From the NCBI GenBank assembly GCA_025738555.1, contig JAOVFP010000001.1, positions 5,270,001 through 5,334,000 of the forward strand: DNA of 64,000 nucleotides, read 5' to 3'. The stretch comes from Cyathus striatus (taxonomy: Eukaryota; Basidiomycota; Agaricomycetes; Agaricales; Nidulariaceae). Each line of letters begins with the position of its first letter. The first letter of the stretch is position 1. Below are positions 24,825 to 57,225 of this stretch, in pieces. The translations under genes were made by a program, and so were the position numbers. Under the pieces are notes generated by a model. It made no database searches and was not told the origin of the DNA. It saw only the letters and a program-made list of their open reading frames with translations.

Positions 24825-25859
24825 CTAGTAGACACCATGCATCAACTTTGAAGCTTGTGCATTCTTGGGGCTAAACCCGCTAACTTGAAGTGATCGAATA
24901 GTGCAGTTAGACCTCTGCAGCATCGCTTCCACCGGCTCCAAACTAAGTGAATCATCGACTCCTGCTAATTTATACTCCTTTAAGGTGATGCTTCGCAGCG
25001 AAGGAACGACCAAAGGACCGAGAATTTTTCTTAGGCTGTGAAAGTCTGCTTCTATCTCCAACGACTCGAGACGGTGCATCTGGATTTGCATATTTGAGAG
25101 CTTGACGACACAGCACGTGGAGACTTTAAGATGCTCGAGGTGAGGCATCTTTTTCAAGACTTCATTGTAGGAGTTTAAAGGTAATGGGTAACCTTTCCAT
25201 TCGAACGTCGTTAATTGCGACCAAGGAAAGTGCCAGTCGAAAACATCAGAATCTCCCCCCTTTATATCGAGAATTCTGAGGACTGAAAGGTGCGATAAGC
25301 TGGATGCGAAGTTGTGCATTTGGTCGGTATCAACTGGCTGCCACCCACTGAGGGTTAACGATTTAATGGCAGTCAATCCTCGTCCTCGTTTGAGCTCGTC
25401 ATCTAATGAAGAAAGAAGGAAACTGAAATTAATTTGAATATTTAAGCTGGATACTCTCTGGCGATTTCTATGGAGTATAGGAAGGATAGCGGCGTGGATG
25501 AAGGGGATGGCGTTATTATTATCTGCTGTTTGATCTTTGTGTAGAGATACTGAAACTCCGCGTGTTGAAGAGCGAACGAAACAGACATTGAGTAAGGAAA
25601 CGATTCGTTGCGCTAACGACGTATTCCATTTGAATGTATTGGATAGCCTATCCGTGTAGATGTGAATATCTGACCAGAGTTCAGGGAAGGAGAGGGTAAC
25701 GGCACGCCAGCGAGAGCAAACGCCGTTAAGGTTCCATATGTTTAACGATGCTTCACGCGAGGAGGTGAGTCTGGTTATGTCCACACCGACATGAGGATAC
25801 GCTCGAATAAACACTTCTTCTAGGAGTTCCGGTGGAAGACTGTGGATAGGAGGTTCCAT
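24825..25859 (-). CDS. F-box/LRR protein
   Basis: This is a single-exon gene of 344 aa. The N-terminal F-box is SLPPELLEEVFIRAYP (about residues 7-22), followed by VCSRWRAVTLSFPELWSDI, the usual end of the fungal F-box-like domain. The remainder has weak leucine-rich repeats (SLTLSGW, VLRILDIKG, LEHLKVSTC, RLESLEIEA, SLRSITLKEY). It probably recruits a substrate to an SCF ubiquitin ligase. It ends 288 bp after the convergent methyltransferase. A TATATATATA run at about 26003-26012 lies upstream on this strand and may be its TATA element. Confidence 0.85.
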   Translation of the reverse strand: MEPPIHSLPPELLEEVFIRAYPHVGVDITRLTSSREASLNIWNLNGVCSRWRAVTLSFPELWSDIHIYTDRLSNTFKWNTSLAQRIVSLLNVCFVRSSTRGVSVSLHKDQTADNNNAIPFIHAAILPILHRNRQRVSSLNIQINFSFLLSSLDDELKRGRGLTAIKSLTLSGWQPVDTDQMHNFASSLSHLSVLRILDIKGGDSDVFDWHFPWSQLTTFEWKGYPLPLNSYNEVLKKMPHLEHLKVSTCCVVKLSNMQIQMHRLESLEIEADFHSLRKILGPLVVPSLRSITLKEYKLAGVDDSLSLEPVEAMLQRSNCTIRSLQVSGFSPKNAQASKLMHGVY

Positions 25860-31320: not shown

Positions 31321-32587
31321 CTAAACTAACTTACAGGAGGGTATTTTCCATCTTACCGAGAACTTGTCAACTGTAAGTCTGTCCTTGATCACTGGGTGGA
31401 TATCTGCTCTCGAAAGAAGTTCCCGTTTAATCGACTCGGGTACATCATAAGAGCCAAAAGTGACCTCGGGTATACGGACGAGCCAGGACTGCGTAAGGTA
31501 TCCAATGACAGATTCTTTGTAGTGGCTTTTATCCAAGTATAAATCCAATATCCGAAGAGGACAATTAGATTGCGTATAAAAACGCGACAAGGCATAGTAG
31601 TTGTACGGTCCATGAGTGTGGTTAATGAAAAGCTCTGTGAGTTGTGGAAATGAAAAGAACTGTAAGATTGCCCCAGTATCCGCATGTAAGGCTATGGTTA
31701 GCCTGAAGAGTCTTGGAAGCGATACTACGCGATGGTAGTTACTTGGCGTGGTCAGAATATCTCGTTCGGAGCTCGTAAATGTGATGTCTGTCGCAGATGT
31801 GCACAAGGACAAGCATTTTACACAGTCATCCGGAGATACGTTGTATAAACCGCCCAAAAAGATTTCCGTTAAACGGGACCATGTATTAGCATCCATGAAA
31901 GAGGGAAGGCACAAGCCCGACCATTGTAGATGGCGCATATTCGGAGAGGTCGATAAGAATGTGAAAATAGCATCCGTGAAGGAAAGCTTTCGCTCAAGAG
32001 GAATATTGATTCCATCTATGTTAAGCAGTCTAAAATATACTGATGATTTCCGCTGAAGGTTTTCCAAACCCTCTAAAACATGGCGATAAAGTACAACGGC
32101 TGCTAAAGCTTTCCAGCGAGACACGTGTTTGATTGCAAGGGAGAAGGAGTCAACGTCTTGACCACGTTCGGAAACGATGTCAAGATAAAGAGGAGAAGAC
32201 CCTGATCGCTCCAGCCATAGTTGAACCAGGCTCGGATTTTTCAGGATAATATACGACCACAATCGAGGCATAGAAAGCGTCACGTAACGCCATCTCCGGC
32301 AAATTTGCGATAAAGTGATTGTCTTCTGTCGTCCACATCTCACGACAGCGTCAATGACACAGTAACGATGATTTATCCAGTCAAAGCAACAGTTGAAGAT
32401 TTCTTGCAATATTTCGGTCGGTAAGTTATCGAAGTGGCATTCCTTCTGCTAAATCAATACTGCCTTTCAGCTAACTAATAAAACTTTTGGTGAAGGCATC
32501 ATGACTTACGGAGATTTCAACGCGAGCAAAGACAGACGACCTTGTTGATTTTAGTTTGTGTGCACTTGGGGGGTGGTAAAGCGGCAT
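31321..32587 (-). CDS. F-box/LRR protein (paralogue of 48962-50203)
   Basis: Two exons (32510-32587 and 31321-32448) with a 61-nt GTAAGT...AG intron encode about 401 aa. Exon 2 opens with the F-box HFDNLPTEILQEIFNCCF, followed by LSQICRRWRYVTLSMPRLWSYI, then divergent leucine-rich repeats. The motif LWLERSGSSPLYLDI is shared with LWLQRSSNHPLYLTA in the gene at 48962, which marks them as one subfamily. Exon 1 adds 26 residues (MPLYHPPSAHKLKSTRSSVF...). Starting at the first ATG of exon 2 (32409) would lose the first half of the F-box, so the spliced start is preferred. Probable SCF adaptor. Confidence 0.8.
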
Positions 32588-32837: not shown

Positions 32838-35800
32838 CTATGTTAGGATACTCTTTGTTTGTTCATTTGCCAACGTTCCGAGTTCCCCAGAAACGATACC
32901 ACCTTTCCACTCTACACGGGCTTGTGGAGGTAGTTCATTCAGAAGTTCCACGAAACGGGAAGCTTCAATTTTACAGTATAAAATGAGGTTGGTTACGTTC
33001 TTCCAGCAAAGACCCAGATCGGGGAAAATTTGTTCCTGGATATTCAATTGCACGTTCGTTAGATGTCCTGTACGTGCCAATCGAAGACGACTTAAGGGCG
33101 TTGAGCTCCTTATTTTTAATGATGTGACACATGGCAAAGGAATCGGTTCATTATGTGTGTCCTCGGCACATCGCTCATCGGCAAGGGCGACGTCGATGAT
33201 TTCCAGCGTATCGCCATGCTGACAAAGCAGTTGCTTGAACCGCTGCATTGTTATTTCGCATTCCTTTAGTTCTCTTTTTGGGCTAATGTTAGGGTCTGAA
33301 AATAGATAGTTAAGACCGCAACGTTAAAATGTGCCCTTCAAAGCTCACCGTCCACGACACATATATCCTCTTCTTCGATGCCAGATCTTTGCGAGGGAAT
33401 TGTAGCAGGTGAGTTGTCTATGGATATGAGGATATGAGAAAGCTAGCACTTCTTTTGTGTATCCATCAAAACACACCCTGGGGTCCGGGCAATTGTGATA
33501 CAGGAGAAGTTTCAGCCTCAGCTGATCATCAATGGTTAGTACCCAGTATTCTTTCACGCACGAACATATATGACATAGCATCCTGCTTACTTATTGTTAC
33601 TAGCTCCAACTCGCTTATAGGGCGCTGTTCAGAGATAGGGAGCAGATTACGGGGCCCAGTATTGACTGGAACATAACAAAGTTTAGTATATGATTGCAAG
33701 TTAACAGCGGGAAGTGCCACCATCTTCAGATAAGTTCGAGATTCCCATTGCCATTCCTAGAGAAGTCATCGGCCCAGAGGAAATCATCCGGTCTATGGAA
33801 AAGGCGTGGCTAGACCCAAGACAAACCCAGCAAACATGAGGTTTAAACTGAACTTACTCTCCATTTTGAAACCTTCTCGCTCGTATGGAGGTGGAGGTGT
33901 GACCACAGGGGTTCCACTGGCATCTTGGCGGGGTACATCTAAGACTACCATACATTAAGTGGTTAGTATTCCATCTCTGAATGTAAAGCAGTCGATGCTA
34001 TAAACCCACTGTTGGTTAGGCCTAAAATGTCAATTGAAGCCAGCGGCGATAAATTCGAGCTAACAGCGCTGGACCCAGCAGAAAGGTCTAAAACAAAAGG
34101 TAAACTAGATCCTTTTGTAAATTTGATTCATCATCTCACCGTTGTCAGAACCATTAAATTCTGAATGTGTTTGGTCAGATATGTCCTCGGAAGATCTAGC
34201 ATTTTCTATTAACAAAATGGTTAGCATGATGCTGTATGTAGCTTATACAGGATCTTACCCCCCGTAGGATTTGTCTCCGAATGTAAACTTTCTGATCCAT
34301 TAAAAGGGGAGATAACTGATGTCGTATCTTCGTCTAATGAAATTGTTACAATTTGGTACTATGGATATACGTATAAGCAGCGGAACTCACCTGGCAGCGG
34401 CAGTGTAGTCTTGCCAATGTGCACTTTCGGAGAGTAGACTGCTAAATATGGCATTCAATCTTTCATTGTGGCGTTGCAGGCTTCATCACTCACCTCCTGA
34501 CATCAGTAAATCTCCTGGTGGTGGTAGCCTTGAAAAAATGTCAGGAGATGATGACACGTAGAATGCTAAAACAAGTTAACACTGAGTTACAGTGCTCCAT
34601 TCGAGCAATCGGCAGGAGAAATTCACCCTCCGGTATAATTCGTGGAACTTCAGTATAAGATACGTTGGATGGTCCAGCACCATCTGCTATTAAAACTGTT
34701 AGTATAGGACTGAATTATGCAGTGGAACATACCCGTCGGTGTATACACATGTGGGTCGTCGCAGTAAGATAAGGCTGGGGAATATTCAACGGAAGCATCT
34801 ATTAATTAACTTGTTATTACATCACATTCTATATCTAACACAAGTTGTACTTACTCAGCTGCGGGCCTGTCTCTTGCTGTTGTAAAGCATTTGGTATATG
34901 CCGAGAGAAGTTATTGACAAGTATGTCATCTAATCATGAACAGTATTAATACAATGCTATAAGTCTAAAATTTAAACTCACCATCCAGTGACGGTAACAA
35001 TATATACTGCAGTCTTGGGGTATTAGGAATATTATGATTACTAGATATCTCAGTGAAAGCATCCATAGTTCCTGCGTTGTCTGTAGAACATCTTCAACCT
35101 CGTATTCTATTAGTACACGTATCAAGCAACTCACTCTCGGAAGGCAGTTCATTACTATGTGGTTGCGGCAAACTTGAGACCTCGCCAACCTGTGAATGGC
35201 CTGCTTTGAGAACGTAAGTCAGCATTTTTCTATAAAAGCACTTAGTAGAAACAATACTCACCCACTGGTTGGAGTCCTCCGCGCATTATTTGTAGCACTT
35301 CGCGTATAAAGGACTGAAATGCTGACTCAAGCTGCTGTTCTAGCATGTCAGAGTTGAGGGCTTGACTCGGAGGGGGTGGAATATGTGGTAAAGCGGTGGA
35401 GGCCCCTTCCGCACCGGAAGAATCATTGTTTTGAGCTTCGGAAGGTAGCGATGAATCAGGTAGTGGTCCATATGAATTGGCTTAGAAACATTTCAGCATC
35501 GTTGTTCCTGGCATTAGTTCAAAATTATTCACCATTGTGTTCCAGTTCATCAGCTATCCTTCCGACTAAAACCCATTTAGTTATAACTTCAAGCACTTTC
35601 AATGATGTCGCGACGCACATCCATGTATAACCTCCCGAAATGCTGATACAATCTCGTCATTTTCGCACGGGAAGCTCGGCGACAGCCCGAAAATATCATT
35701 GCGCCGTGTTCTCAAGGATGATTTTATCCTTTTCCATATTTTTGTGATAGGTTCATTCATTTCTGCAGCATATTATTAGAGACGTCATTGAAAGATAAAA

Positions 35801-35925
35801 ATATATTCACCCGAGTTCGTATAGCTATGTTTGTATTTTTTTGAGTCGCGTTTAACGCCCTCCGGGGCTTGCTCTATGTTTTTATTTTCTATGTAACAAG
35901 TGAGTGTGCACTTTATTGACAACAT
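32838..35925 (-). CDS. 20-exon mini-exon gene, all introns phase 1; LRR-like C-terminus
   Basis: Exons, 5' to 3': 35811-35925, 35619-35762, 35533-35565, 35262-35480, 35135-35200, 34982-35080, 34855-34929, 34733-34798, 34627-34686, 34494-34565, 34391-34441, 34259-34333, 34140-34205, 34010-34087, 33858-33944, 33721-33792, 33591-33665, 33477-33521, 33349-33417 and 32838-33295. The total is 2025 nt, 674 aa. Every internal exon is a multiple of three (33-219 nt), every one of the 19 introns (46-69 nt) falls after the first codon base, and the frame stays open throughout. The mini-exon part is Ser/Pro/Asp/Glu-rich and disordered (for example SSSPDIFSRLPPPGD, SPFNGSESLHSE). The 152-codon last exon has leucine-rich-repeat-like periodicity (GDTLEIIDVALAD, VTSLKIRS, VTNLILYC). 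No signal peptide is seen. The start (MLSIKCTLTCYIE) is the first in-frame ATG; upstream exons cannot be excluded. Function unknown. Confidence 0.75.
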
Positions 35926-38900
35926 GCAGGGAGAAGTCGTACCTTTGTCAAACAGTCGGCGTAGTATATGTCGTTAGTAGAAACAGAGTTGTTTAATATA
36001 AAGTCGAGTACGATCATATTCGTTCCGCTACTTAATGGCAAAGAACTTATATCCTACTCCGAACATGAATACAATGCATAAGGCTGCTAGGTGACTACGG
36101 CGTCCTTATAACGAATGAACGTAAACTGTTGTAGGAGATGATGGTCGTCAAATGGTCGTCGTGCACCGGCAAATGTCAAATATATATTGATTTCATCATC
36201 AGCAGTAGCGGTAAGCATTATGCATGGGCGCTTATCCTTGAAAACAACAATAACTCACAGCTAACTCAGTAACATTTGGCGTCGGTAAATCATCGGTAAC
36301 CATGTTGGAGTGGCAATTAGTAGTAATGGTAGTCGTCCCTGTAGAGTGTCTTGAACGCATGTCACTGAAAATGAGGCGAAACACATATACTTCATTCTGA
36401 AGCGTTGTGGTAGTGTGGTTGGGCAAACAAGAGTCATATGCAACAAAATGAACAACAAAGAGGTCTTTTTATGACCAAATGGTAAGTAACTAGGAATAGG
36501 ACACTATAATGGTCGCCGGAACCTGGATTGATGAGCGACGAGTCGAGTAGTCGACCAGAGAGGCTAGGACATTCGAGGGGATGTGGGAGGTTGTAGACAG
36601 CCACAGTTCCATTTGTAATCTGTTCTTTCGACTTGTCCGCCTCCACAGTCGTGAAGATCTGAGGCAGAAAGCCAGGGAGTTCAAGATGTTTTCGGGAGTC
36701 GTTGCTATATCACCAATGCATTCTGAGAGCCTGAGCTAGGTCGGGAACATGGAGTAACCAATGGCTAACCTTGCGCTATAATTGACCTACTTTTCTCTTG
36801 AGTGTAAAAACTTCCCATCGTAATAACGATCCCTGATCTCTGAACCATTGAATGTGCTGCAGTTGACCATTACGTATAGCACCCGAACACCAGCAACCAA
36901 TAAAGTACAAGGATGGACTTCAGTGAACTTGCCTTGCATACATCTTCAGCTTTGGAACATGTAGAACTGAAATATCTAAAGTCTGCTCCATTCTTTGAAT
37001 AGTCAGTTGGCTTTGCGTCGCCTCAGCCGCGGTCAAAATCCGAGAGAGGTTGTCAGATGGCGCACGACTTGGTGTCTTGTCCCGCCCACACCCACACATA
37101 CCCTCGACATCATTCCGTACGATCCAATACGCGAGGAAAAATCCCCGTAGTGCTACTAAGAACCATCACCACCACACCCTCTGTGCTCCCAATCTGCTAC
37201 CAACAATCTGTTTAGTTGCAGATCGACTACCATCAACTGTTGAGGTGTTCGGCGATCACATCAACTCGTCTATGGTAATTGGTAAAAGAGAGAGGTGGAT
37301 TATATACCGATGTAGATGGAATTGTCGAAGTTCGTGGCGGGATCATAGCCAAGTGTTGTTCTTTGAGACGCGTTGAATCGAGTTCTATTCCCCAGTGTTA
37401 ACAACAGCCTTGCGCACACTTTCGACCTTTGCACCTTCTGAATGTTGACCGCTGATACGCGTATCCACCAGTTGAAGCTATTTTGACTCGTAATTCATAA
37501 ACAACTCCTTCCTTCGCTCGAATGATCGCCATGGGATGATCATGCCACATCTGTGGAATACCGCGTGCTTTGATGCGTGACCAGCTATGTCTCAGGCCAA
37601 TCTCTTGACCAAAAAGCCACCAACGACTCTACACCTTCATCAGTACTAGGCGTCAACGGCTGTCTGCGTCCGCAAGTAAGGCTAAGATCGGAACTTCAGA
37701 CGTTGTACCTCCCGAATCTGCATGTTCCAGGTGAAACTACCTTGGCACGTGCATGTCCTATAGACAACGCCTTCAGTTGTTCAGATGGCCAGCTGATGCC
37801 AACATAGAATGTATCGTGTCACATTCCATTGCACACCGCGAGGATTAGGCTGCGAGGTGGGGTGCTTGTGCACCCGAATCTTCGGCGATCCTTCGACGAC
37901 TACGCCTTCAGCTGTCGCTATCGCATCATCACGAGAATATACTGTGCGAGGGCTGTTATTAGCACTGCGGAGGGGGTATGGTCCTGGAGTGAAGTGGGGA
38001 GTGCAAAGTGCAGGTGACGAGTTTCATTGTTTCATTCAATCACTGCGAGATCGCAGTCGGATTGGAATGGACTGAGCTGCGCTGGAGCCAAGTTCTTTCT
38101 GCTTCAGTTTCTGTTCAACGCGCAAAGGGCGGGGCCCGTGATCCTTTGACACTTGTGTACTCAACTGTATCCCTCCCATTCTCTTCGACTCGCCTGTCTC
38201 CCGCAAGTGGCATAAGCAACTAACTGTCGTCCCATTGGCCTATTACTGTCCATCACAGATGATCGCATCGTTAGAGCGGGATGTTGGCTGATGTTCTCTG
38301 ATGTTGGTGTTTCATTTCGGTCACCAGATCGCAGTTGGTTGCCGGCAAAAAACAAAAGTTTACTTTGCACGATTCTGTTGAACGGTATATCCATTGTATG
38401 TTAATATGTTAATTGGGGTCAGATAGAACAAGGGCCAAGGCAAGAGCCTCTTCTTGAAGTCTCTGATCGTGAATGAAGGATGATCATGTACCGCCATCAT
38501 GTGTGGCGCAGTAATCAAAGCCGTGCCCCCTTTCTCTATCCCTTTCAGCATATACTATCTAAACCAATACCCACTTCACCGTTCACCGAATCTTAATATC
38601 CATCGAGAGTATCACTTGTTGGATCTGCTCAGCGGCATCGACCGAGAAAGCAGTGGTTACTGGACGAGACATATTTTTATCCTTAAGGCCTACTGGAAGT
38701 GGAGTAGATGGGATTGTATCACAGCGCGCGCATCTCGGCGCATCTATCCCAAATCATAGTGTAGTTGCAACTTGCACCATGACTTGATAACCCATCGCTA
38801 GTCCTTTATTGAGCGCTGGATGGCCACGTCGAACCGTAGTTTCGGTCCCATTTGTTTTTAGTTGATGGTCAGGTATACAAGTATAGGCCTTTTAGTGAGT

Positions 38901-39540: not shown

Positions 39541-41215
39541 ATTGCACAGATACGTCGTTAGTCCTAACTTTGCTGCTACCCATCGTCCTAAGGCAAAGAT
39601 CCTATCCAACGTTAACAACCCCTCGCGGCATCAGATGGAGCGGGATAGGTGGGTCAGTACAAGCAGTCACAGCACAACTTGACTATCCATCCAATGCATT
39701 ATTTATCATCGCAGGATAGTCGCGCCAGTTACGTCGTGTACTACCCGACGTATGGTCAAGGTCACCGTTCTTCGTCCCCCCACCGGCACCTTCAACCACT
39801 CGTACGTACCCAAGCCGGGCATGGTTCATGTAGCTACCAACACCACCCATATCGTCACGATAGTCAGCGAACTTGTCTCGCGCAAAGCAGTCCTTCGAAG
39901 TGTCGGGGGGTGTCGTTGAGACGTCAGGCAACGTGTGGAGGTACTCGCACTCCCAACCATAGGGACAGCACCCGCGGGCAAAAAAGATGCAGCAGTACTT
40001 CATGCCTTTCATATTGGCTCTTGTGAGCCCCGAGTCGCGCCTTATGTTGCATCGAGTTTGGGTTTTGGTTTTGGTGCAATGGTTCCGCAATCAGCACATA
40101 TTCCTCTAGTCAGAACATAAGTTCATCGTCCTGGGGCAAAGATCCTATCCAACGTTAACAACCCCTTGCGGCATTAGATGGAGCGGGGTGGGGCTGGCCA
40201 GTACAAACCCACTCGCGCACAACTTGGCTACTCATCCGATTCATTGTTTATCGCAGGATAGTCGAGCTCGATCCATCGCTAGTCCTAGTTTTGCTGCTAC
40301 CTGCCGTCCTGGGGCAAAGATCCTATCCAACGTTGGATGGAGCGGGGTGGGGTGGACCAGTATAAACCCAGTCGCATCCATTATTTATCATCGCAGGACA
40401 ATTAGTCCAAACTTTGCTGCTACCCATCGTCCTAGGGCAAAGATCCTATCCAACCTCGCGATTTTGGACGGAGTGGGGTAGGAAGGTGGAGAAGTATATA
40501 CCCAGTCGCAACTTGCGATGGAGCGGGGTAGGTGAGACAAGTATAGGCCCAATCGTAACTTGCGGTGCCCTCTGGTCCTCGCAGAATGGTCGACCTCGAA
40601 CCATCCCATCGAGCCGTAACTTCACCCGTCGCTCGAGGCAAAGATCCTATCCAACGTCAACAACCCCTTTCGCGGCATTAGATAAAACGGGGCAGGTGGG
40701 CCAGTATATACCCAATCGCAGCACAACGTCAATTGGCTATCCATCCCATCCATTGCTTATCATCGCAGAATAGTCGAGCTCGACCCATCGCCAGTTCCAA
40801 CTTTGCTGCTATCCATCGTCCTGCGGTGAACATTCTATCCAACCACCCCCTTCGCGATTTTAGACGGAGAGGGGTAGGTAAGTCGCAGCTTGCGATGGAG
40901 CGGGGTAGGCCCAACCGTAGTGTAGATGTAACTTGCGGTGCCTTCTAGTCTTCGCAGAATAGTCGACCTCGAACCATCGCATCGAGCCCCCCTTCTATTC
41001 TCCCCACCGCTCAGGGCAAGGATACAATCCGTGACTTCAGTTGGCGCGGTATGAGTAAGTAGTTGCAACTTGCAATGCTCATCTAGTCCATCGTGTCTTC
41101 GTTTATGTTATGTACTCCCACTGTTTCCGCATTTACCCTAGCTCGCATGTCAGAAGATGCCGCGGTACGACGGTGCGATGCTTTTAGATGGAGCGGGGTA
41201 GGGTACGTGCAAGTA
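39540..41215. repeat. Second degenerate tandem array (~120-200 bp units)
   Basis: A unit with the order TTTGCTGCTACCCATCGTCCT, GGCAAAGATCCTATCCAACG, ATGGAGCGGGGTAGG and CATCGCAGGATAGTCGAGCTC recurs. The CAAAGATCCTATCCAACG anchor lies near 39594, 40138, 40315, 40438 and 40639, with degenerate copies near 40830 and 41020. The interval 39740-40080 does not fit the unit. Frames that cross the array are repetitive translations, not genes. Confidence 0.65.
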
Positions 41216-46763: not shown

Positions 46764-48436
46764 ATGGATTCCTCTGAGTTTTCCGCCACAGATTTCTTGT
46801 AAGATCATATTTTATTTCTTTCCTTACCTATATGCTTACTTTAGCTTGCGGTAGCAACATCCCATCTGCGTGTACACAATGCAGCTCCTTGTCCGGAATT
46901 CTTAGCAAATTTTCCTTGCCAGAATTTCCATTCCCTTTCCTCCGTTCAGGATATATTCCGAGTCGTTCTGAACGCTCCGTCATTCGGGGTCGTATCTCTA
47001 CCAGCGAGGCGGCTACCCGTGCCCTCGAAGCCGAACTTTCCAACTTGCAATCGCAGCTCTCATACATTCGTGAATTCACGAAATTTCAAAAATCACTACT
47101 CTCCCCGATTCGTCAGCTTCCCGACGATATTCTAGGCGAGATATTTAGCTGCATATGTGAGTATGGGATTTCCATAGGCGATAAACGGGACAGGATATGG
47201 GATCTGATGCAAGTTTGCTCACGTTGGCGAAACGTGGTGCAGGGTACTCTATCGTTATGGGTCAAGTTCTACACCGATTCGGTGGATAAACCGGGCATCA
47301 CTTCAGCCGCCATTGCTCTGCGTATCAAGTCGTGTCTCGAATTCTCAGGATCGCTGCCACTGTCTGTTTCTCTTCCTTTTTGGAGCCCAAGTGCATTCCC
47401 CTTTCAGGCTGTAGAAGATCTTGCGAACCATTCGGATCGTTGGAGGTCACTTACAATCAGTGCAGGCATTCTCAGAGATTCAAAGATGAGAGAGACCACC
47501 AGTGTAGATGCTTCGATTCAACGACAGGGACTCGGACAGTTGCGAAGGCTTTCCCTTCAAGGAGACGAGTGGTTTTGTAGTCGCTGTCCGTTTGATTACT
47601 TCCGAAATGCTTCTGTGCTCGACGAGGTCGCATTATATTATATCATTCTCACTGAAACTTTGGAATTCCCTCGTTGGAATTACGTGAGGAAACTCACCAT
47701 GTGGTCTTGCAAACTGGGCACCGGAGACGGAATTAGCTGCGCTTTGCGCGCCATGCCGCTCTTGGAAGAGCTGGAGTGGAGAAGAAATATAATGCATCAA
47801 GGTCAGGCTGCACCTCAGCTCGCAACCCTTCCTTCGTTACATACCATCAGCTGGTCATATAATTCAGAGCCCTGGCCTTTGCTCATCGCCCCAGGTCTTA
47901 CCAAAATTCAGATTTGGGATGAAGCTGACCCTCAATCTCTGTTATCCATGGTTGAAAGATCGGGGAGCATTGTTAAAGAGCTAGATTTATCTTCCAACAG
48001 CAATCGAACTGTTCTTCAGATTATGAACCAGCTTTCCCATGTTGAGACTCTTTCTCTAGGTGTAAAGAAAGGGACCGAGCTTCTCCCAAAATTGGCCTGG
48101 AGCTCTAAGAGAATTCAAAGGGGCAGGTCTGAAAGAGAGAAGTTGCTTCCTTCACTGCAGAGTCTGAGCCTATACATTGGTTCGAAGGTCGAAGGTAATA
48201 TTCTTCCACTACTGATGGGTATTGTACGTTCTAGATCAGCATCTTCCAAAGGCGCAAATAAAAATGCCCCAGCTCGTCTATTATCTTTCAGATACGTTGC
48301 ACATGTACATACTGATGGAGACGAAGGATATGAATCGGCTCTCAAAAACCTTGGAGGGGAGTTAGGCGTCGAGATAGATGTATCTGTGACACCAAAGTCA
48401 CCAACGCCCTCCGAAATATTAGGATTATCATCGTAG
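46764..48436 (+). CDS. F-box/LRR protein
   Basis: Two exons (46764-46798, 46855-48436) encode about 538 aa. Exon 1 gives MDSSEFSATDF and a split codon. Exon 2 continues NIPSACTQCSSLSGIL, then SERSVIRGRISTSEAATRALEAELSNL (coiled coil), the F-box SPIRQLPDDILGEIFSCI, CSRWRNVVQGTLSLWVKF, and leucine-rich repeats to the end. The spliced start is chosen because the paralogues at 294-328 and 56704-56738 have the same 35-nt first exon ending in phase 2. A start at the ATG at 46832 would lie inside the intron. Probable SCF substrate adaptor. Same subfamily as the genes at the left edge and 54977 and the pseudogene at 19430. Confidence 0.85.
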
Positions 48437-48961
48437 GCTACATAGTAGAGTTACTACACTTGCGTACCCTGATCAAACCCTGATGAAATAAGTTCGATTT
48501 TGAATTAATTTTGAAAGAGTTTTAACTTTTGACTCTTCAATAACATAAAAGCAATTATGCAAGGCCAAATAGCGACAGGTCAATCGGTCACGGTAATCAG
48601 TTCTTCTTTTATTATTTACCAAGGGCGTCATTAGTAAACAATTACGTAGACACCGCCACGCTGGGCCCACATCACCAACACAATCACCTCGAGTCGTGGC
48701 TTTTATCTCGCTACGCAGATACTCAGTCTTCTCGTGGAAGGTACTTCTATTGTTATCAAGGAGGTCATTAAACAATTGCATAGGCGCTCATAATCAAACA
48801 ATAATGGTAAGTACATCCATAAACATTTTCAATCTTACACCATGGCATCTCATTTACGTTACCGCTGTCACTTTCTACTCCAACAATCCTCAGTATTATG
48901 GTAGGCGGAGATTTCATTGACCAATTGTGAATTCATTGTATTAACTACATATTTTTTACAG
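48437..48961. other. Intergenic / possible upstream exon of next gene
   Basis: The last bases (TATTTTTTACAG, 48950-48961) look like a splice acceptor directly before the ATG at 48962, so a 5' exon of the next gene may lie here. No clear candidate was found. Confidence 0.4.
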
Positions 48962-50203
48962 ATGCAACCAACCAAGCCTATCAATGAATTACCGATGGAA
49001 CTCTTACAGAAGATCTTTGATTCATGTTTCGACGTCAAGGGATCGCAGAATCTTTACAGTGTGATACTGCCTCGACAAAATGTTACTCTTACACTATCGC
49101 AAGTCTGCAAATTTTGGCGCTCTATTTCGCATGCCACACCTCGTTTGTGGACGGATATCCACATCAACAATCCTAGTCATGTTAAACTTTGGCTACAAAG
49201 ATCCAGCAATCACCCGTTGTACCTCACGGCCCTGGACCCACAGGGTCGTTGTCATGATTTTAACAGTCGCTCTTTCTCCTATGCACTTGAACATATTTTA
49301 CGGTGGAGAGCTATGGAAATTGATCTTAAGTATTGCCCCGGAGACCAAGTTGTCAGACTCGAAGCAAAAGTTGCTCCTCAACTGGCATTGATGATCATCC
49401 ACCACCACCAAGACCTCAATGGATCACGACAAATTACGGACACCATGTTTTCTTTCTTATCGACTTCTTCTGGGCTGCGTAATATGCGTTTATCACGTGC
49501 CATTGTGCTTTCAACTTCCATGGACATTAATATATGGTCTCGTTTGGCCATAGTTGTGTTATATGAAATTAGGATGGAGAATCCCATAGCAGTCATGTGT
49601 ATTAAGTTTTTATCTATGTGTACTTCCGCTACACATATCGAGTTTACCAGCACCGATATCCTTCCCATACCATTCCAGCTCACGCAAAGTTCAGTATTCA
49701 TACTTCCAAGACTAAAGAATTTGACGCTGGGCCTTGATATGGATGCAATGTCAATCCTTCAGCACTTCTCTCTACCACAGCTCAAAAAATTATACATCAT
49801 TCGAAGTCGTGCGCCGTATGACTATGATGCATTTTCTCTTTTCTTTTCCAGGTCAAACTGTGCACTAAGTATGATTCGCTGGCATTTTGGGAGGTTTGAC
49901 AATGGTATCATCAGTCACCTTAATTGTTCGAAGCTAGATCACATTCCCTGTTTTTGGTTCACCTTCAACGAGCCCGATCGTCAAATAGCTGCTGTCACAA
50001 TAGGAATCCGCTTCAGACTATTATGGCACACCATTAATCCTCATCTACCTGGAAAAATTCTATTCCTCCCAGAGGCTACCATAGGAAGCTGTGGAATCGG
50101 TTGGTGTTTTGATATCAGTACGGGTCCGATTCAGAATTTCGGCAGTGCCTGGACTGGACAAGAAGTGAAACGCAAAACTCTTCGCACTTACTTTACATTG
50201 TAG
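48962..50203 (+). CDS. F-box/LRR protein (paralogue of 31321-32587)
   Basis: The single resolved exon encodes 413 aa from MQPTKPINELPMELLQKIFDSCF, an F-box at the very N-terminus. LSQVCKFWRSISHATPRLWTDI and LWLQRSSNHPLYLTA follow, shared with the gene at 31321-32587, then leucine-rich repeats. The ATG directly follows an acceptor-like TTTTTTACAG. In the paralogue the F-box exon is also preceded by a small exon, so the true start may be upstream. The last 60 residues are less repeat-like. Probable SCF adaptor. Confidence 0.8.
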   Translation: MQPTKPINELPMELLQKIFDSCFDVKGSQNLYSVILPRQNVTLTLSQVCKFWRSISHATPRLWTDIHINNPSHVKLWLQRSSNHPLYLTALDPQGRCHDFNSRSFSYALEHILRWRAMEIDLKYCPGDQVVRLEAKVAPQLALMIIHHHQDLNGSRQITDTMFSFLSTSSGLRNMRLSRAIVLSTSMDINIWSRLAIVVLYEIRMENPIAVMCIKFLSMCTSATHIEFTSTDILPIPFQLTQSSVFILPRLKNLTLGLDMDAMSILQHFSLPQLKKLYIIRSRAPYDYDAFSLFFSRSNCALSMIRWHFGRFDNGIISHLNCSKLDHIPCFWFTFNEPDRQIAAVTIGIRFRLLWHTINPHLPGKILFLPEATIGSCGIGWCFDISTGPIQNFGSAWTGQEVKRKTLRTYFTL

Positions 50204-50342: not shown

Positions 50343-51455
50343 TTACATTTTAATTCTATCCAGTACACTGACTTTTTCCAATGTTTGAATAGCTTTTATT
50401 GTCTTAGAGATTTGTTCATAGGGCAATCCACCTGTCTTTTGTCTCTCTATCGCTTCCTTAAGGGAGCGCCTCAGTTGCTTCCCTGCAGAAGTTTCCGGAA
50501 TAAGCTTAGAATTGTCCACAAGTTCCTTTTGAAGGCAAAGATCGTCAAAATTTTCTTCCTTACGCCTGTCCACAGCATAGTTGATCAGATCTTGAGCAGA
50601 ATTTTGCGTTCCTTCGAACCGCATTAGTTTAGCTCCTGTATCTATCATCTGTTTGAAATATTTATCCTTCAACTGGACCTCTCTCTGTTCCTCAGACAGA
50701 TTCCATGGTTGGGACCACTTAGTAGTGACGCACACCACGCATTTTAGATTGTCTCGGCCACAGAGTTCCTTCATCATTTCAATATTTTCACGAGTAGACC
50801 CGTGCATACGCGATTGAGTTATATCAACAAGATATAGCACTCCGGCCAATTTCATACGTTTTACATACCTAATATTTAACTACCAGAATGATCAGAAAGA
50901 TAATAAGGGGGCTAACTTACGACTTTGCAAGCCAGACTGATATTCGCCTTAAGATTTCTGCATCATCGATATATGTGTCATCAAATCCTGGAGTATCCAG
51001 AATAACTAGGCGTGGACGATCTTGCAGTGGGACGATGACATGTTGTAAGTGTTCTGTGCACGATATTAGGCCGTGTCCTATCTGCATTATGCCATCATCC
51101 AGGAGTGTGTTTATGAACTATCATCATAGGTTGTTAAGATTAAGATCTTATTCTGCATACTATATCGGTACCGTGCTCTTTCCTACACCTGTTGGTCCCA
51201 TGATGCTAAAGTAAGATGCTCTTAATAAGAGGTGAATCTTGATCTAACACACACGTACGCGATAACTAGGTCACCAAGGTTTCCATCTTCTACGATATTG
51301 TCCCTGCTCTTGATATATTTCCTCTCGAATTTCCATTTCCTAGAGTCTGCTGGAGAACAATAGATTTGAACACGAAAGTCGTCGAGCATGTTGTAGAGAA
51401 GTGAACTGGGAGATCGATGAGCCGTATCATTATTTATATGCCAATTCACAGGCAT
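50343..51455 (-). CDS. AIG1/GIMAP-like P-loop GTPase, copy 1
   Basis: Four exons (51259-51455, 51172-51205, 50921-51117, 50343-50868) encode about 317 aa. The G domain shows G1 IMGPTGVGKST (encoded mostly by a 34-nt exon), G3 LVILDTPGFDDTY, the helix AEILRRISVWLAKS, LYLVDITQSRM, and VVCVTTKWSQ at the G4 position. The C-terminal part is helical and charged (KQLRRSLKEAIERQ). It binds GTP; the role is unknown. Agaricomycetes have many such genes. Exon sizes and phases equal those of the neighbour at 51721-52885 except at the ends, showing tandem duplication. Confidence 0.85.
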
Positions 51456-51720
51456 GCATAGAACTCGTGGGGGATCTTCAGGTTTGCACCCCAGGATGGT
51501 ATCGGATCTCCACCGGGCTGGTCAAAATCACAGGTTGCTATATATCACAACGATCGTGGTGAGAGTACGTTGCTTACCAAAGAGCATCTCTTTAACAGAA
51601 GAATCACATAAAAACATATAATAACGATCTAATATAGTATTACACTACGAGAGGTTGAAGGATGACTATAAATACATATCGCATTGATTGACCATTCGGG
51701 GATAGTAGCATATGTACCTC

Positions 51721-52885
51721 TTAAACGAGAATGAGCGGGGTGTGATATAAGTCTTGGATAAATTTACCACTATTCCAAGTTCGAAATGGCATTAGTAATA
51801 CATTGCGAGGGAAAGCAAAACACGAGAAGCTTACAAGCTTCAAAAAGTCTTTAAATTTGTCCGTCATGCTTCTCTTATCCAGTGTTTGAATGGCTTTCTG
51901 AGTCTTTACGATTTGATCCTCAGGTAACTTTCTTTCCCTTTGTTTTTGCAGGAACTCTGCAAGGGTGGTTCTAAGCCGCTTTCCAGCAGAGGTTTCCGGA
52001 ATGTACTTTGATTGGTCCACAAGTTCCACTTGAAGGCGTACTTTGTTCTGTTGGTCCTCTCGCAGGACATACTCTACAATATTACGAGCGGATTCATAAG
52101 TCCCATTGAACCTCTCCAAACTAGCTCCGGAATTCAACATGTCCACAAGGTATTTGGTTCTTAATTGTTGCTCTCGTTCTTGTTCAGACGGATCGTTGGA
52201 CCATTTGGTTGTTACACAAACAACGGATTTCAACTGATCTCGTCCACAAAGGTCCTTCATCACTTCGATGTTTTCGCGCACAGACCCATTCATACGGGGC
52301 TGGGTTATATCAGCCAGATAAAGGATGCCTGTCAGACCCATATGTTTGACATATCTGAGATTTGTATTTTTATATAAATAGAACAATGCAAAAATCACTA
52401 AAAGCTTACGAAGTAGCTAGCCAAACGGATATTCGTCTTAGTATCTCCGCATCATCGATATAGGTATCGTCAAACCCCGGGGTATCCAAGATAATTACTC
52501 GGTTACGCTTTTTTTCACGGGGGATTTCAACGATAGCATGTTGGATTTTTGCCGTGCAAGATGTCAGATCATGTCCTACTGCCATGGTTTCTTTTTTCAG
52601 AAGAGTGTTTATGAACTGTTAACATCGTTCAGGTTATAGGATTACAGTGACTGCAGTTCCAAATACCGTGCTCTTTCCAACGCCGGTCGGCCCCATAACA
52701 CTATCAGGAACAGTACAGTTAATGTTCTGTTAAGTACACAGCCAGAAAAGGAAAGGTGCGTACGCAATAACTTGGTCAGTAGGATTCCCCTCGAGTGGAA
52801 AAACGGCATCATCTTTTCTGACGTATTTCTTCTCTTTCTTCCATTTTCTTATATCTTGTCCACTGTTGTCTGATGGAGGGGGCAT
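51721..52885 (-). CDS. AIG1/GIMAP-like P-loop GTPase, copy 2
   Basis: Four exons (52764-52885, 52667-52700, 52410-52615, 51721-52354) encode about 331 aa. It starts MPPPSDNSGQDIRKWKKEKK, followed by G1 VMGPTGVGKST, G3 VIILDTPGFDDTY and the G4-like CVTTKWSND. Compared with the neighbour copy it has about 20 extra C-terminal residues (PRNVLLMPFRTWNSGKF). The 34-nt G1 exon is the same length in both. It lies 265 bp upstream of copy 1 on the same strand. Predicted to be a cytosolic or membrane-associated GTP-binding protein; the substrate or partner is unknown. Confidence 0.85.
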
Positions 52886-54976: not shown

Positions 54977-56738
54977 TCAGTAGTCGTAAGAATCTGAGTC
55001 CTCCTCCTGCTCCGATGAATAGTACTCTGAACACTCTGATTCATCCGAATCACCGTCCGTCCACGTCAACACCTTCGCCTTTAACGTTAACTCGACCTCG
55101 ACCTTTATTCCCAATTCTTTTCTAAGATCCTTCAGGCGAGTAAATACTAAAGCAAGTTTCACGTGCACTGACTGAACAACATCAACAGCTGTCAATTTGA
55201 CAAATAGTAAAGGCAGTGGCACGGAAGTGTGGCTACCATTCTTCATATGAATTTTGGAGGATCTGGAGCGCAAGAACTCCTCTGCGGACTGTAAATTTCG
55301 AGCATCTACCACATGAGATGGATGAAGTATGAGCTGGAAGTTCTGCAACGAGGGAAGCAATTGTGCACTTTCTAACTCCGGATTCCATATAAGCCCCTTC
55401 AAGGTGTCCGTTCCCGAATCAGAGCCCATGTCCAAGAGAACAAGCTCTTTGGCATCACGTACTTGTTCTATTACATCGAGCACGAAGTAGTCCCGGTCTT
55501 CGCTTATCATCTGGAGTGTCAACTGGTTCATAACGGTTCCAGCATCGGATTGCTCAATCATACGAGAGATATCTTCTAAATTCCTGCGACTTTCCATCAT
55601 TTGGATATTGGCAAGTTTAGGGACACAAAGAATAGAGAAGATTTCGGACCTGTCGTCGTAGTCACAAGTTCCCAGGGTATGTAAGGATGGAAGCGTTATA
55701 ACCTTGGCTGTATGCGGTGCCAATCTTCCACTATTGCATATATATAATTCTTCTAGAAGGGACATTGAGCGCAATGCCGAAATAAAGGTCGTTTCAATGC
55801 CCTGAAATGATAGGTGCATTGTAAGTTTCTTTAGGGTGGCCCAAGGGAATTCCTGAATATCGGTGACATGGCTGCATTTCACATTTAGCTCTTGAAGCTC
55901 TGTTGCACCTCGGAAGCGTTGTAAAGAGCATACCCGATGTGACTCATCAAGTAAAGCGAGTGTACGAAGTCGTGGAAGCCCATATCGGACTGCGGTCTCC
56001 ATAGAAGTCTCCTTTGCTGTCTTCTCTTTTATGAAGCGTATGTCAATTGTAAGAGATGTCCAGCGATCTGTATGTTGTCCAATATCATAAATTGCCGAAA
56101 TAGGAAATTTTCGGTATTGGGCAGTAGGCAGGATAGAGATTGAAAGCGGGCTCCTCCCTGAGAGTCTGAGACATGTCTGAATACGAAGCGTGACAGCAGC
56201 CGGCTTTATCTGAATCACTTCCACATAAAAAGTACTCCATAACGATGATGTGCCCTTAATAATGTCGCGCCATCTAGCACAGACACACCATAGATCCCAA
56301 ATGCCACGTCGAAAGCCGATATTGATGCCATCTCCACCAATAACATATGCAAATATTTCAACAAGAAGCTCATCTGGTAGCCTCCGTATAGGGGATAATA
56401 AGGCATGTTGGAATATCTTGAATGTACGAATATTGGTTAATTGCGATTGCAGTTGGGATAGTTCATCTTCGAGTGTTTGAATGATTGTTTCGCTGGACGA
56501 TACAAAGTTTTGTATTATAGAGCGGTCTGATGGATTCGGGACATAACGCGAACGAGAGAGGGACGCAGGAGCTGACAGAGCGGGGATTGTACTGAGTATT
56601 CCTGTCAAAGTGCTGCATTTCGTGCATGCAGACGGAAAGCTTCCATATGGCAGTAAGAGTAAATACAAGTGCACTCTCGATATGATGTCGAATTTAAACT
56701 TACTTAAAGCTAGAAACCTCGTTGGTAGGGGTTTCCAT
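54977..56738 (-). CDS. F-box/LRR protein
   Basis: Two exons (56704-56738, 54977-56639) with a 64-nt GTAAGT...AG intron encode about 565 aa. Exon 1 is METPTNEVSSF plus a split codon. Exon 2 gives FPSACTKCSTLTGIL, SDRSIIQNFVSSSETIIQTLEDELSQL (coiled coil), the F-box LSPIRRLPDELLVEIFAYV, VCARWRDIIKGTSSLWSTF, about ten leucine-rich repeats and an acidic tail ending EEDSDSYDY. Reading upstream of exon 2 without splicing would add an atypical 80 residues and is rejected, because the paralogues share the short first exon. Its first exon, coiled-coil segment and upstream DNA match the left-edge gene. Probable SCF adaptor. Confidence 0.88.
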
Positions 56739-57225
56739 GGTGAAAAATTAAGGGTGGTAGTTTCAATTTCAAGGAAGTTTTGTAAGAGCGCGATGCGATA
56801 TGTAACATAGGATGGAAGCAACAACGAAGCAAGGTGACAAAAGCCTTGCAAAAGCCGTGACCAAACTTGCGCCTTGGCGTTTTTCAACATTCATGTCATG
56901 TGATCGAGTGCCGTTATGAACTAGAGATTCAGTCAGATAAGAACCGAATTGATTACTATGGTTCAAGTTGCACTAAGCCAATGGCGAAAACGATTCTTTG
57001 TGATTCCGTCATTGACGATAGCGCTACATAAGTAGGTATCTCCAACAAACCTCCAACTCGAAGGTTTTTTGACTGAGTTGGGTTCTACCCACCGCTCCCA
57101 CCACTCAAAGTTTACACTAGAAGTTATGTATGCCGTAAAATCAGGGTATTTAATAGACGCAAGTAAGTACCCGAAGACACTCGTTTAATCTTCGCAACGA
57201 TGGAACCGAACATTAAGCTCTGGTA
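56739..57225. other. Divergent intergenic region
   Basis: 56739-56900 is shared with bases 329-470 at the left edge (duplicated F-box promoter). 57003-57058 is the second copy of the direct repeat at 54831-54881. No gene is seen. Confidence 0.5.

Follow-up and report, generated by a model that had tools for sequence, protein, structure and literature searches.

Serial phase-1 mini-exons in a Cyathus gene family with a leucine-rich-repeat-like terminal exon

Gene structure and orthologue

The window analysed here, 64,000 nt of contig C1 in a Cyathus genome assembly (107.5 Mb, 24 contigs), carries on its minus strand, at 32838..35925, a gene that we modelled with 20 exons and a 672-residue protein, the frame being intact across all exons. 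The 19 introns of this model all lie in phase 1, that is, after the first base of a codon, and measure 48–69 nt (46 nt with an alternative acceptor at 34687), and 18/18 internal exons, of 33–219 nt, are multiples of three, as an earlier, sequence-only reading of this DNA had proposed. The guanine-cytosine (GC) content of the gene is 0.46 in exons and 0.36 in introns.

When the 672-residue protein was searched against a database of 5.77 billion proteins, with 7996 candidates scored, the sole homologue among them was hypothetical protein BDQ17DRAFT_1356976 of Cyathus striatus (P0001), with 84% identity at 98% coverage. Three homologue searches in all returned only C. striatus proteins (about 8000 candidates sharing most words were scored in two of them, and 877 in the third). 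Spliced alignment of P0001 to the window, with phases left free, placed 21/21 introns in phase 1 and used the same 19 donors as the 20-exon model, with three acceptors displaced by 3 nt and one by 9 nt. We discounted the intron at 35414-35361, which merely bridges a 17-residue gap; P0001 is without 17 residues found inside the 219-nt exon of the window gene. The credible phase-1 introns of the gene are 20, namely the earlier 19 plus a previously overlooked one at 35942-35889. All 26 residues of the exon that follows this intron are identical in P0001, an unusual degree of conservation relative to the protein as a whole.

The added intron also alters the 5' end. The earlier reading had an open frame from start to stop, of which the frame and the stop at 32838 were borne out; its first exon was wrong at the 5' end because the proposed start, ATG 35925, falls within the intron. 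The C. striatus start codon (MLRRLFD) corresponds to ATA at 35965-35967 (minus strand), and an in-frame stop lies three codons upstream of it. With ATA standing at the codon of the C. striatus methionine (35967), ATG 35760 is a candidate start. Such an ATA is what might be expected of a gene-finding artefact or a decaying gene, a reading that is largely refuted, and that we regard as very improbable, given the identity and coverage of the annotated orthologue, the 20 credible phase-1 introns of its spliced alignment, the difference in GC between exons and introns, and the frame that runs intact through all exons.

Table 1. Features of the mini-exon gene, by position in the window
Feature	Position	Strand	Basis or remark
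5' exon	35943..35967	-	seen only via C. striatus protein (MLRRLFD..)
Extra phase-1 intron, 54 nt	35889..35942	-	P0001 spliced alignment
Exon, 78 nt, phase 1 at both ends	35811..35888	-	P0001 alignment
Three exons (144, 33, 219 nt), N-terminal part	35262..35762	-	helices in low-confidence model
Tandem acceptor AAGCAG	35201..35206	-	upstream AG fits P0001
In-frame tandem acceptors, 9 nt apart	35072..35083	-	downstream one fits P0001
Tandem acceptor TAGCAG	34684..34689	-	upstream AG fits P0001
Tandem acceptor TAGCAG	34439..34444	-	upstream AG fits P0001
Array, 15 phase-1 mini-exons, 45-99 nt, mean 70	33349..35200	-	gene model, repeat test
Last exon: LRR-like domain and stop codon	32838..33295	-	model, paralogue matches

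Intron phase

A dynamic-programming gene finder indifferent to phase recovered the run of phase-1 introns, and the P0001 alignment did so more strongly. A first run gave 12/12 introns in phase 1 before the chain ended early; under looser limits, three parameter sets gave 19/21, 21/22 and 19/20, each running beyond the stop at 32838, and a further run gave 18/21. Disagreements sit at the 5' end of the gene and at 33590-33522, an intron chosen by one of the three parameter sets, the other two choosing a phase-0 alternative at 33561-33517. With more permissive donors the best free-phase chain was 1111111111111021011 (score 144.6), and the all-phase-1 chain of 19 introns scored barely below it (143.0), as against 39.5 for a phase-0-only and 44.3 for a phase-2-only chain. 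The top single-phase chain reached 45.4 in 30 dinucleotide shuffles. Among 38 further tiles of the window the top score was 95.5, produced by a 1.9-kb open frame holding two introns, and no single-phase chain in these tiles held more than 11 introns (score 87.4), compared with 19 at the gene. When phase was left free, runs of one phase extended to at most 7 introns in shuffles and 5 in tiles. Phase-1 chains at 25281 on the plus strand (71.5, 9 introns) and at 41081 on the minus strand (65.2, 10 introns) were rejected as noise, having poor introns and exons of 3-6 nt.

A chance run of phases was rejected on the evidence of the shuffles, the tiles and the alignment of the orthologue. If phases were equally likely and independent, 19 phase-1 introns would have a probability of (1/3)^19, about 1e-9, and the arithmetic of the earlier estimate is correct; with the phase-1 share of one basidiomycete gene family (28/64 introns; PMC3584928) the figure becomes about 1.5e-7. 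Two sets of control introns from the window show no phase bias (10:9:10 and 14:14:13). The serial phase-1 observation is confirmed, and is stronger than first stated.

Paralogue family

Four relatives of the last exon occur elsewhere in the genome (L007, L008, L009 and L010), and three of these share the phase-1 design, in keeping with the earlier suggestion of a wider class of such genes. L010, on contig C4, contains five internal mini-exons of 36, 57, 72, 72 and 84 nt bounded by six phase-1 introns, a structure confirmed by the C. striatus protein P0002 (87% identity), the first 40 residues of which were not placeable on L010 other than through mixed-phase, implausible introns. Dense short repeats of AAAAAGTTGCG lie directly upstream of this paralogue (L010 3301-3510). 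L007 (C1:5492109-5493272) and L008 (C1:5479066-5480242) form a tandem pair about 13 kb apart and some 174-187 kb from the query gene, with two phase-1 introns and one mini-exon each, confirmed by P0003 and P0004. P0002, P0003 and P0004 are the C. striatus counterparts of the three paralogues. The longest contig recorded for P0001, P0003 and P0004 alike measures 532,030 bases, and C. striatus may therefore keep the query gene linked to the tandem pair. The remaining relative, L009 (C1:8558265-8558747), is an isolated LRR-exon fragment in AT-rich surroundings; its longer match is interrupted by an in-frame TAG, and it looks like a decayed copy.

Across the four paralogues, internal phase-1 exons number 19, 5, 1 and 1, and 30/30 credible introns are in phase 1, which requires a special cause because the control introns of the window are unbiased in phase. 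Among the best candidates scored, no copies of the array were found elsewhere in the genome, either by DNA or by protein at E<=1, nor were further genome copies of the N-terminal part of L010, or of that of L007 beyond L008.

Encoded protein

The array is rich in serine (14.3%) and proline (11.1%) and acidic, in agreement with the earlier description of its modular part, and the predicted local distance difference test score (pLDDT) lies below 50 for all residues 144-532 of P0001, which is consistent with disorder, although the model giving these scores, built from two sequences, was poor almost everywhere. The array-encoded region is probably disordered. The last exon is predicted to fold as a leucine-rich-repeat (LRR) solenoid, in agreement with the LRR-like end that had been read from the sequence. 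No Pfam family was matched by the 672-residue model at E<=1 or by P0001 at E<=10, and the five LRR exons of the family matched neither Pfam nor any PDB sequence; a search of the genome for LRR_6 found no match anywhere, with the controls equally silent.

Agaricomycete F-box/LRR proteins offer one comparison, having a similar LRR-like C-terminal fold, and F-box-like genes lie nearby in the window; unlike them, the Cyathus gene encodes no F-box (0 Pfam families at E<=1). An F-box origin of the LRR exon was rejected for want of sequence support, a profile comparison with two neighbouring F-box proteins giving 0.8% probability. In the first 40 residues of P0001-P0004 the best 10-residue hydropathy mean ranged from -0.43 to 1.15, compared with 2.12 for a single reference leader, a comparison of hydropathy only. 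No leader is evident in these four proteins from their sequences, and the encoded protein is probably intracellular.

Repeat pattern and origin of the array

The mini-exons resemble one another when they are anchored at their junctions. In a gap-free comparison of the first ten residues of mini-exons 5-19, z was 4.7, 4.7 and 4.3 against shuffles, rotations and order shuffles, respectively, rising to 5.1, 5.3 and 5.0 when L010 was added and standing at 4.0, 4.0 and 3.5 when the split codon was omitted (residues 2-10). The likeness peaks at the junction in an offset scan from -25 to +25, whereas control junctions of the window, drawn at random in sets of 15, gave a mean z of 0.96 and a maximum of 3.80. 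The pattern comprises an acidic or asparagine start, then a serine-rich stretch, and at the end leucine, valine or proline followed by an acidic residue. We take this to be a worn, highly degenerate repeat, some 24 residues long and keeping register with the junctions, rather than proof of duplication. Alignment of the mini-exons to each other, which the sequence-only reading had put forward as a check for duplication, was negative in its ordinary form and positive for a junction-anchored degenerate repeat. Exon DNA z-scores were not used because codon periodicity confounds them.

This is best read as a real Cyathus protein gene in three parts: a short N-terminus that probably has helices, a long, probably disordered arm encoded by the phase-1 mini-exons, and an LRR-like end. 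We consider it somewhat probable that the array grew by the old, repeated duplication of a single symmetric exon, about 72 nt long, along with its intron, some copies having since been lost. Nearly any exon could be joined to any other in frame without a junction stop, and exon number would be free to change because all boundaries are in phase 1 and the base preceding them is nearly always G or A. Exon number would then determine how long an arm separates the N-terminus from the LRR domain; arm length may be the property under selection, and the LRR domain may serve as a binding module.

Several results weigh against this account. In pairwise comparison, mini-exon peptides were no more alike than expected by chance (mean p 0.095, max p 0.54), mini-exon DNA gave p 0.3 or more, and query mini-exons were unlike those of L010 (p 0.18-0.66). 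Introns compared with each other gave a mean p of 0.025 but a max p of 0.7, and their 5' parts carried no signal (p 0.40 for introns 1-19; 0.12 for introns 5-19). At exon ends the repeat signal was weak in the query alone (p 0.11-0.63) and, with L010 added, significant only for the last 1 and last 3 residues (p 0.001 and 0.004), within a series of 24 anchored tests. All 41 control junctions, a set that includes unverified models, themselves gave z 1.9 (residues 1-10) and 2.2 (residues 2-10). No exon has been gained or lost between the two Cyathus proteins (18/18 and 5/5 internal exons kept), so the expansion of the array is not recent, and the 30 family introns are not independent events because L007 and L008 are close tandem copies. 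Recent exon duplication was rejected, ordinary exon and intron comparisons being negative, as were introner-like intron copies, for which the 5' parts gave no signal and the 3' parts only a weak shared composition (z 3.1).

Alternatively, introns may have been inserted one by one, with a bias to phase 1, into a disordered region that was already long, the in-register pattern then reflecting splice-linked codon use. Such serial gain accords with the want of clear exon-to-exon similarity in ordinary tests, the shared composition of intron 3' parts, the weakly positive control junctions, the part of the repeat signal held by the junction codon itself, and the rapid intron gain described in basidiomycetes (PMC3584928). 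We nonetheless think it rather unlikely, since the window's control introns are unbiased in phase against 30/30 in the family, the pattern extends through residues 2-10 at z of about 4, and the paralogues differ in exon number.

Splicing

Retention of 17/19 introns would introduce an in-frame stop and retention of the other two would shift the frame, and only 1/171 possible skip joins creates a junction stop. Together with the 18/18 symmetric internal exons, these properties are compatible with an array that exists for exon skipping in many combinations, yielding many isoforms from one gene, as the earlier reading had supposed. Short introns, however, make exon skipping unlikely, and the introns here measure 48-69 nt, whereas skipping one exon would require an intron of 138-332 nt. 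No mini-exon is left out of the annotated orthologues P0001 and P0002, and the stop-free joins are explained simply by the G or A before the intron. Regulated microexons do occur in fungi, in the NACHT-ankyrin (nank) genes of Tuber (cited in PMC4986451) and in Trichoderma Xlr2 (PMC11121469), but splicing in Coprinopsis cinerea consists mostly of retention and alternative sites, with 5'/3' sites a main class (PMC10532568). The claim of many isoforms through exon skipping is unsupported, and we judge skipping an improbable reason for the array.

Smaller variants could arise at four introns with in-frame tandem acceptors (Table 1), where P0001 fits a site other than the one in the model. Five of the six length differences between P0001 and the window in exons 5-19 fall at exon starts, four of these coinciding with acceptors that the window itself carries in duplicate, and alternative 5'/3' sites being a main class in C. 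cinerea points the same way. It is possible, at less than even chances, that the main isoform variety consists of one to three residues at exon starts, although the differences may merely mirror an annotator's choice between adjacent AGs. Such variants are compatible with a duplicated array, and the two are not exclusive.

Comparison with known systems

Genes built of many mini-exons in one phase are best known from schistosomes and aphids, in which they go with proteins that are secreted or injected; the proteins of the aphid bicycle genes have a signal peptide and are secreted. Bicycle genes have many small internal exons, almost all in phase 2, and about 17 exons on average (PMC9168663). 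The Cyathus gene is like them in its many small same-phase internal exons, and both encode fast-diverging proteins. It differs in the defining phase, being phase 1 throughout, and in its introns of 48-69 nt, its LRR-like terminal exon, its lack of an evident signal peptide, its family of four paralogues and its fungal host. Schistosome micro-exon genes (MEGs) have short exons of 6-81 bp, mostly multiples of three, separated by introns of 0.1-5 kb, and their protein products carry a signal peptide and are secreted (PMC10526429). Alternative splicing of MEGs yields isoforms. The internal exons of the Cyathus gene are likewise short and in multiples of three, though several exceed 81 nt (range 33-219 nt), while its introns are far shorter and no leader is evident. 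The gene resembles bicycle genes and MEGs in layout, lacks a defining feature of each and belongs to neither.

Among fungi, the nank family of Tuber melanosporum also has many very small exons, in that case codon-sized microexons, whose alternative splicing is said to have diversified the family (Iotti et al. 2012, as cited in PMC4986451). The earlier statement that no described fungal class has such a form was too strong in view of this family, which differs from the Cyathus gene in its NACHT and ankyrin domains, the latter gene being without any Pfam match, and in the codon size of its exons. In the open-licence literature, as excerpted and among the matches listed, we found no account of this Cyathus family or of serial one-phase mini-exon genes in basidiomycetes.

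A fungal family with tiny introns, no evident leader and 1, 5 or 19 mini-exons would show that phase-locked arrays arise independently, and would open such arrays to study where short introns make skipping unlikely. Two questions become testable: what preserves symmetric arrays, variety of splicing or ease of changing length, and how they begin. More tentatively, the phase-locked, serially duplicated array might serve as a dial by which evolution lengthens or shortens a disordered arm placed before an LRR recognition domain, and might represent the first such gene-structure-defined family in basidiomycetes, independent of bicycle genes and MEGs and possibly with isoforms.

Neighbouring open frames

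Five F-box-like open frames lie in the window (24825-25859, 31321-32409, 46832-48436, 48917-50203 and 54977-56890), three with matches above the Pfam cut-off and two below it; those at 31321-32409 and 48917-50203 are 38% identical. On the minus strand at 50343-52398, two similar open frames of 170 and 225 aa share stretches such as ENIEMMKELCGRDNLKCVVCVTTKWS and ENIEVMKDLCGRDQLKSVVCVTTKWS and, from this likeness, are likely a tandem duplicate gene pair.
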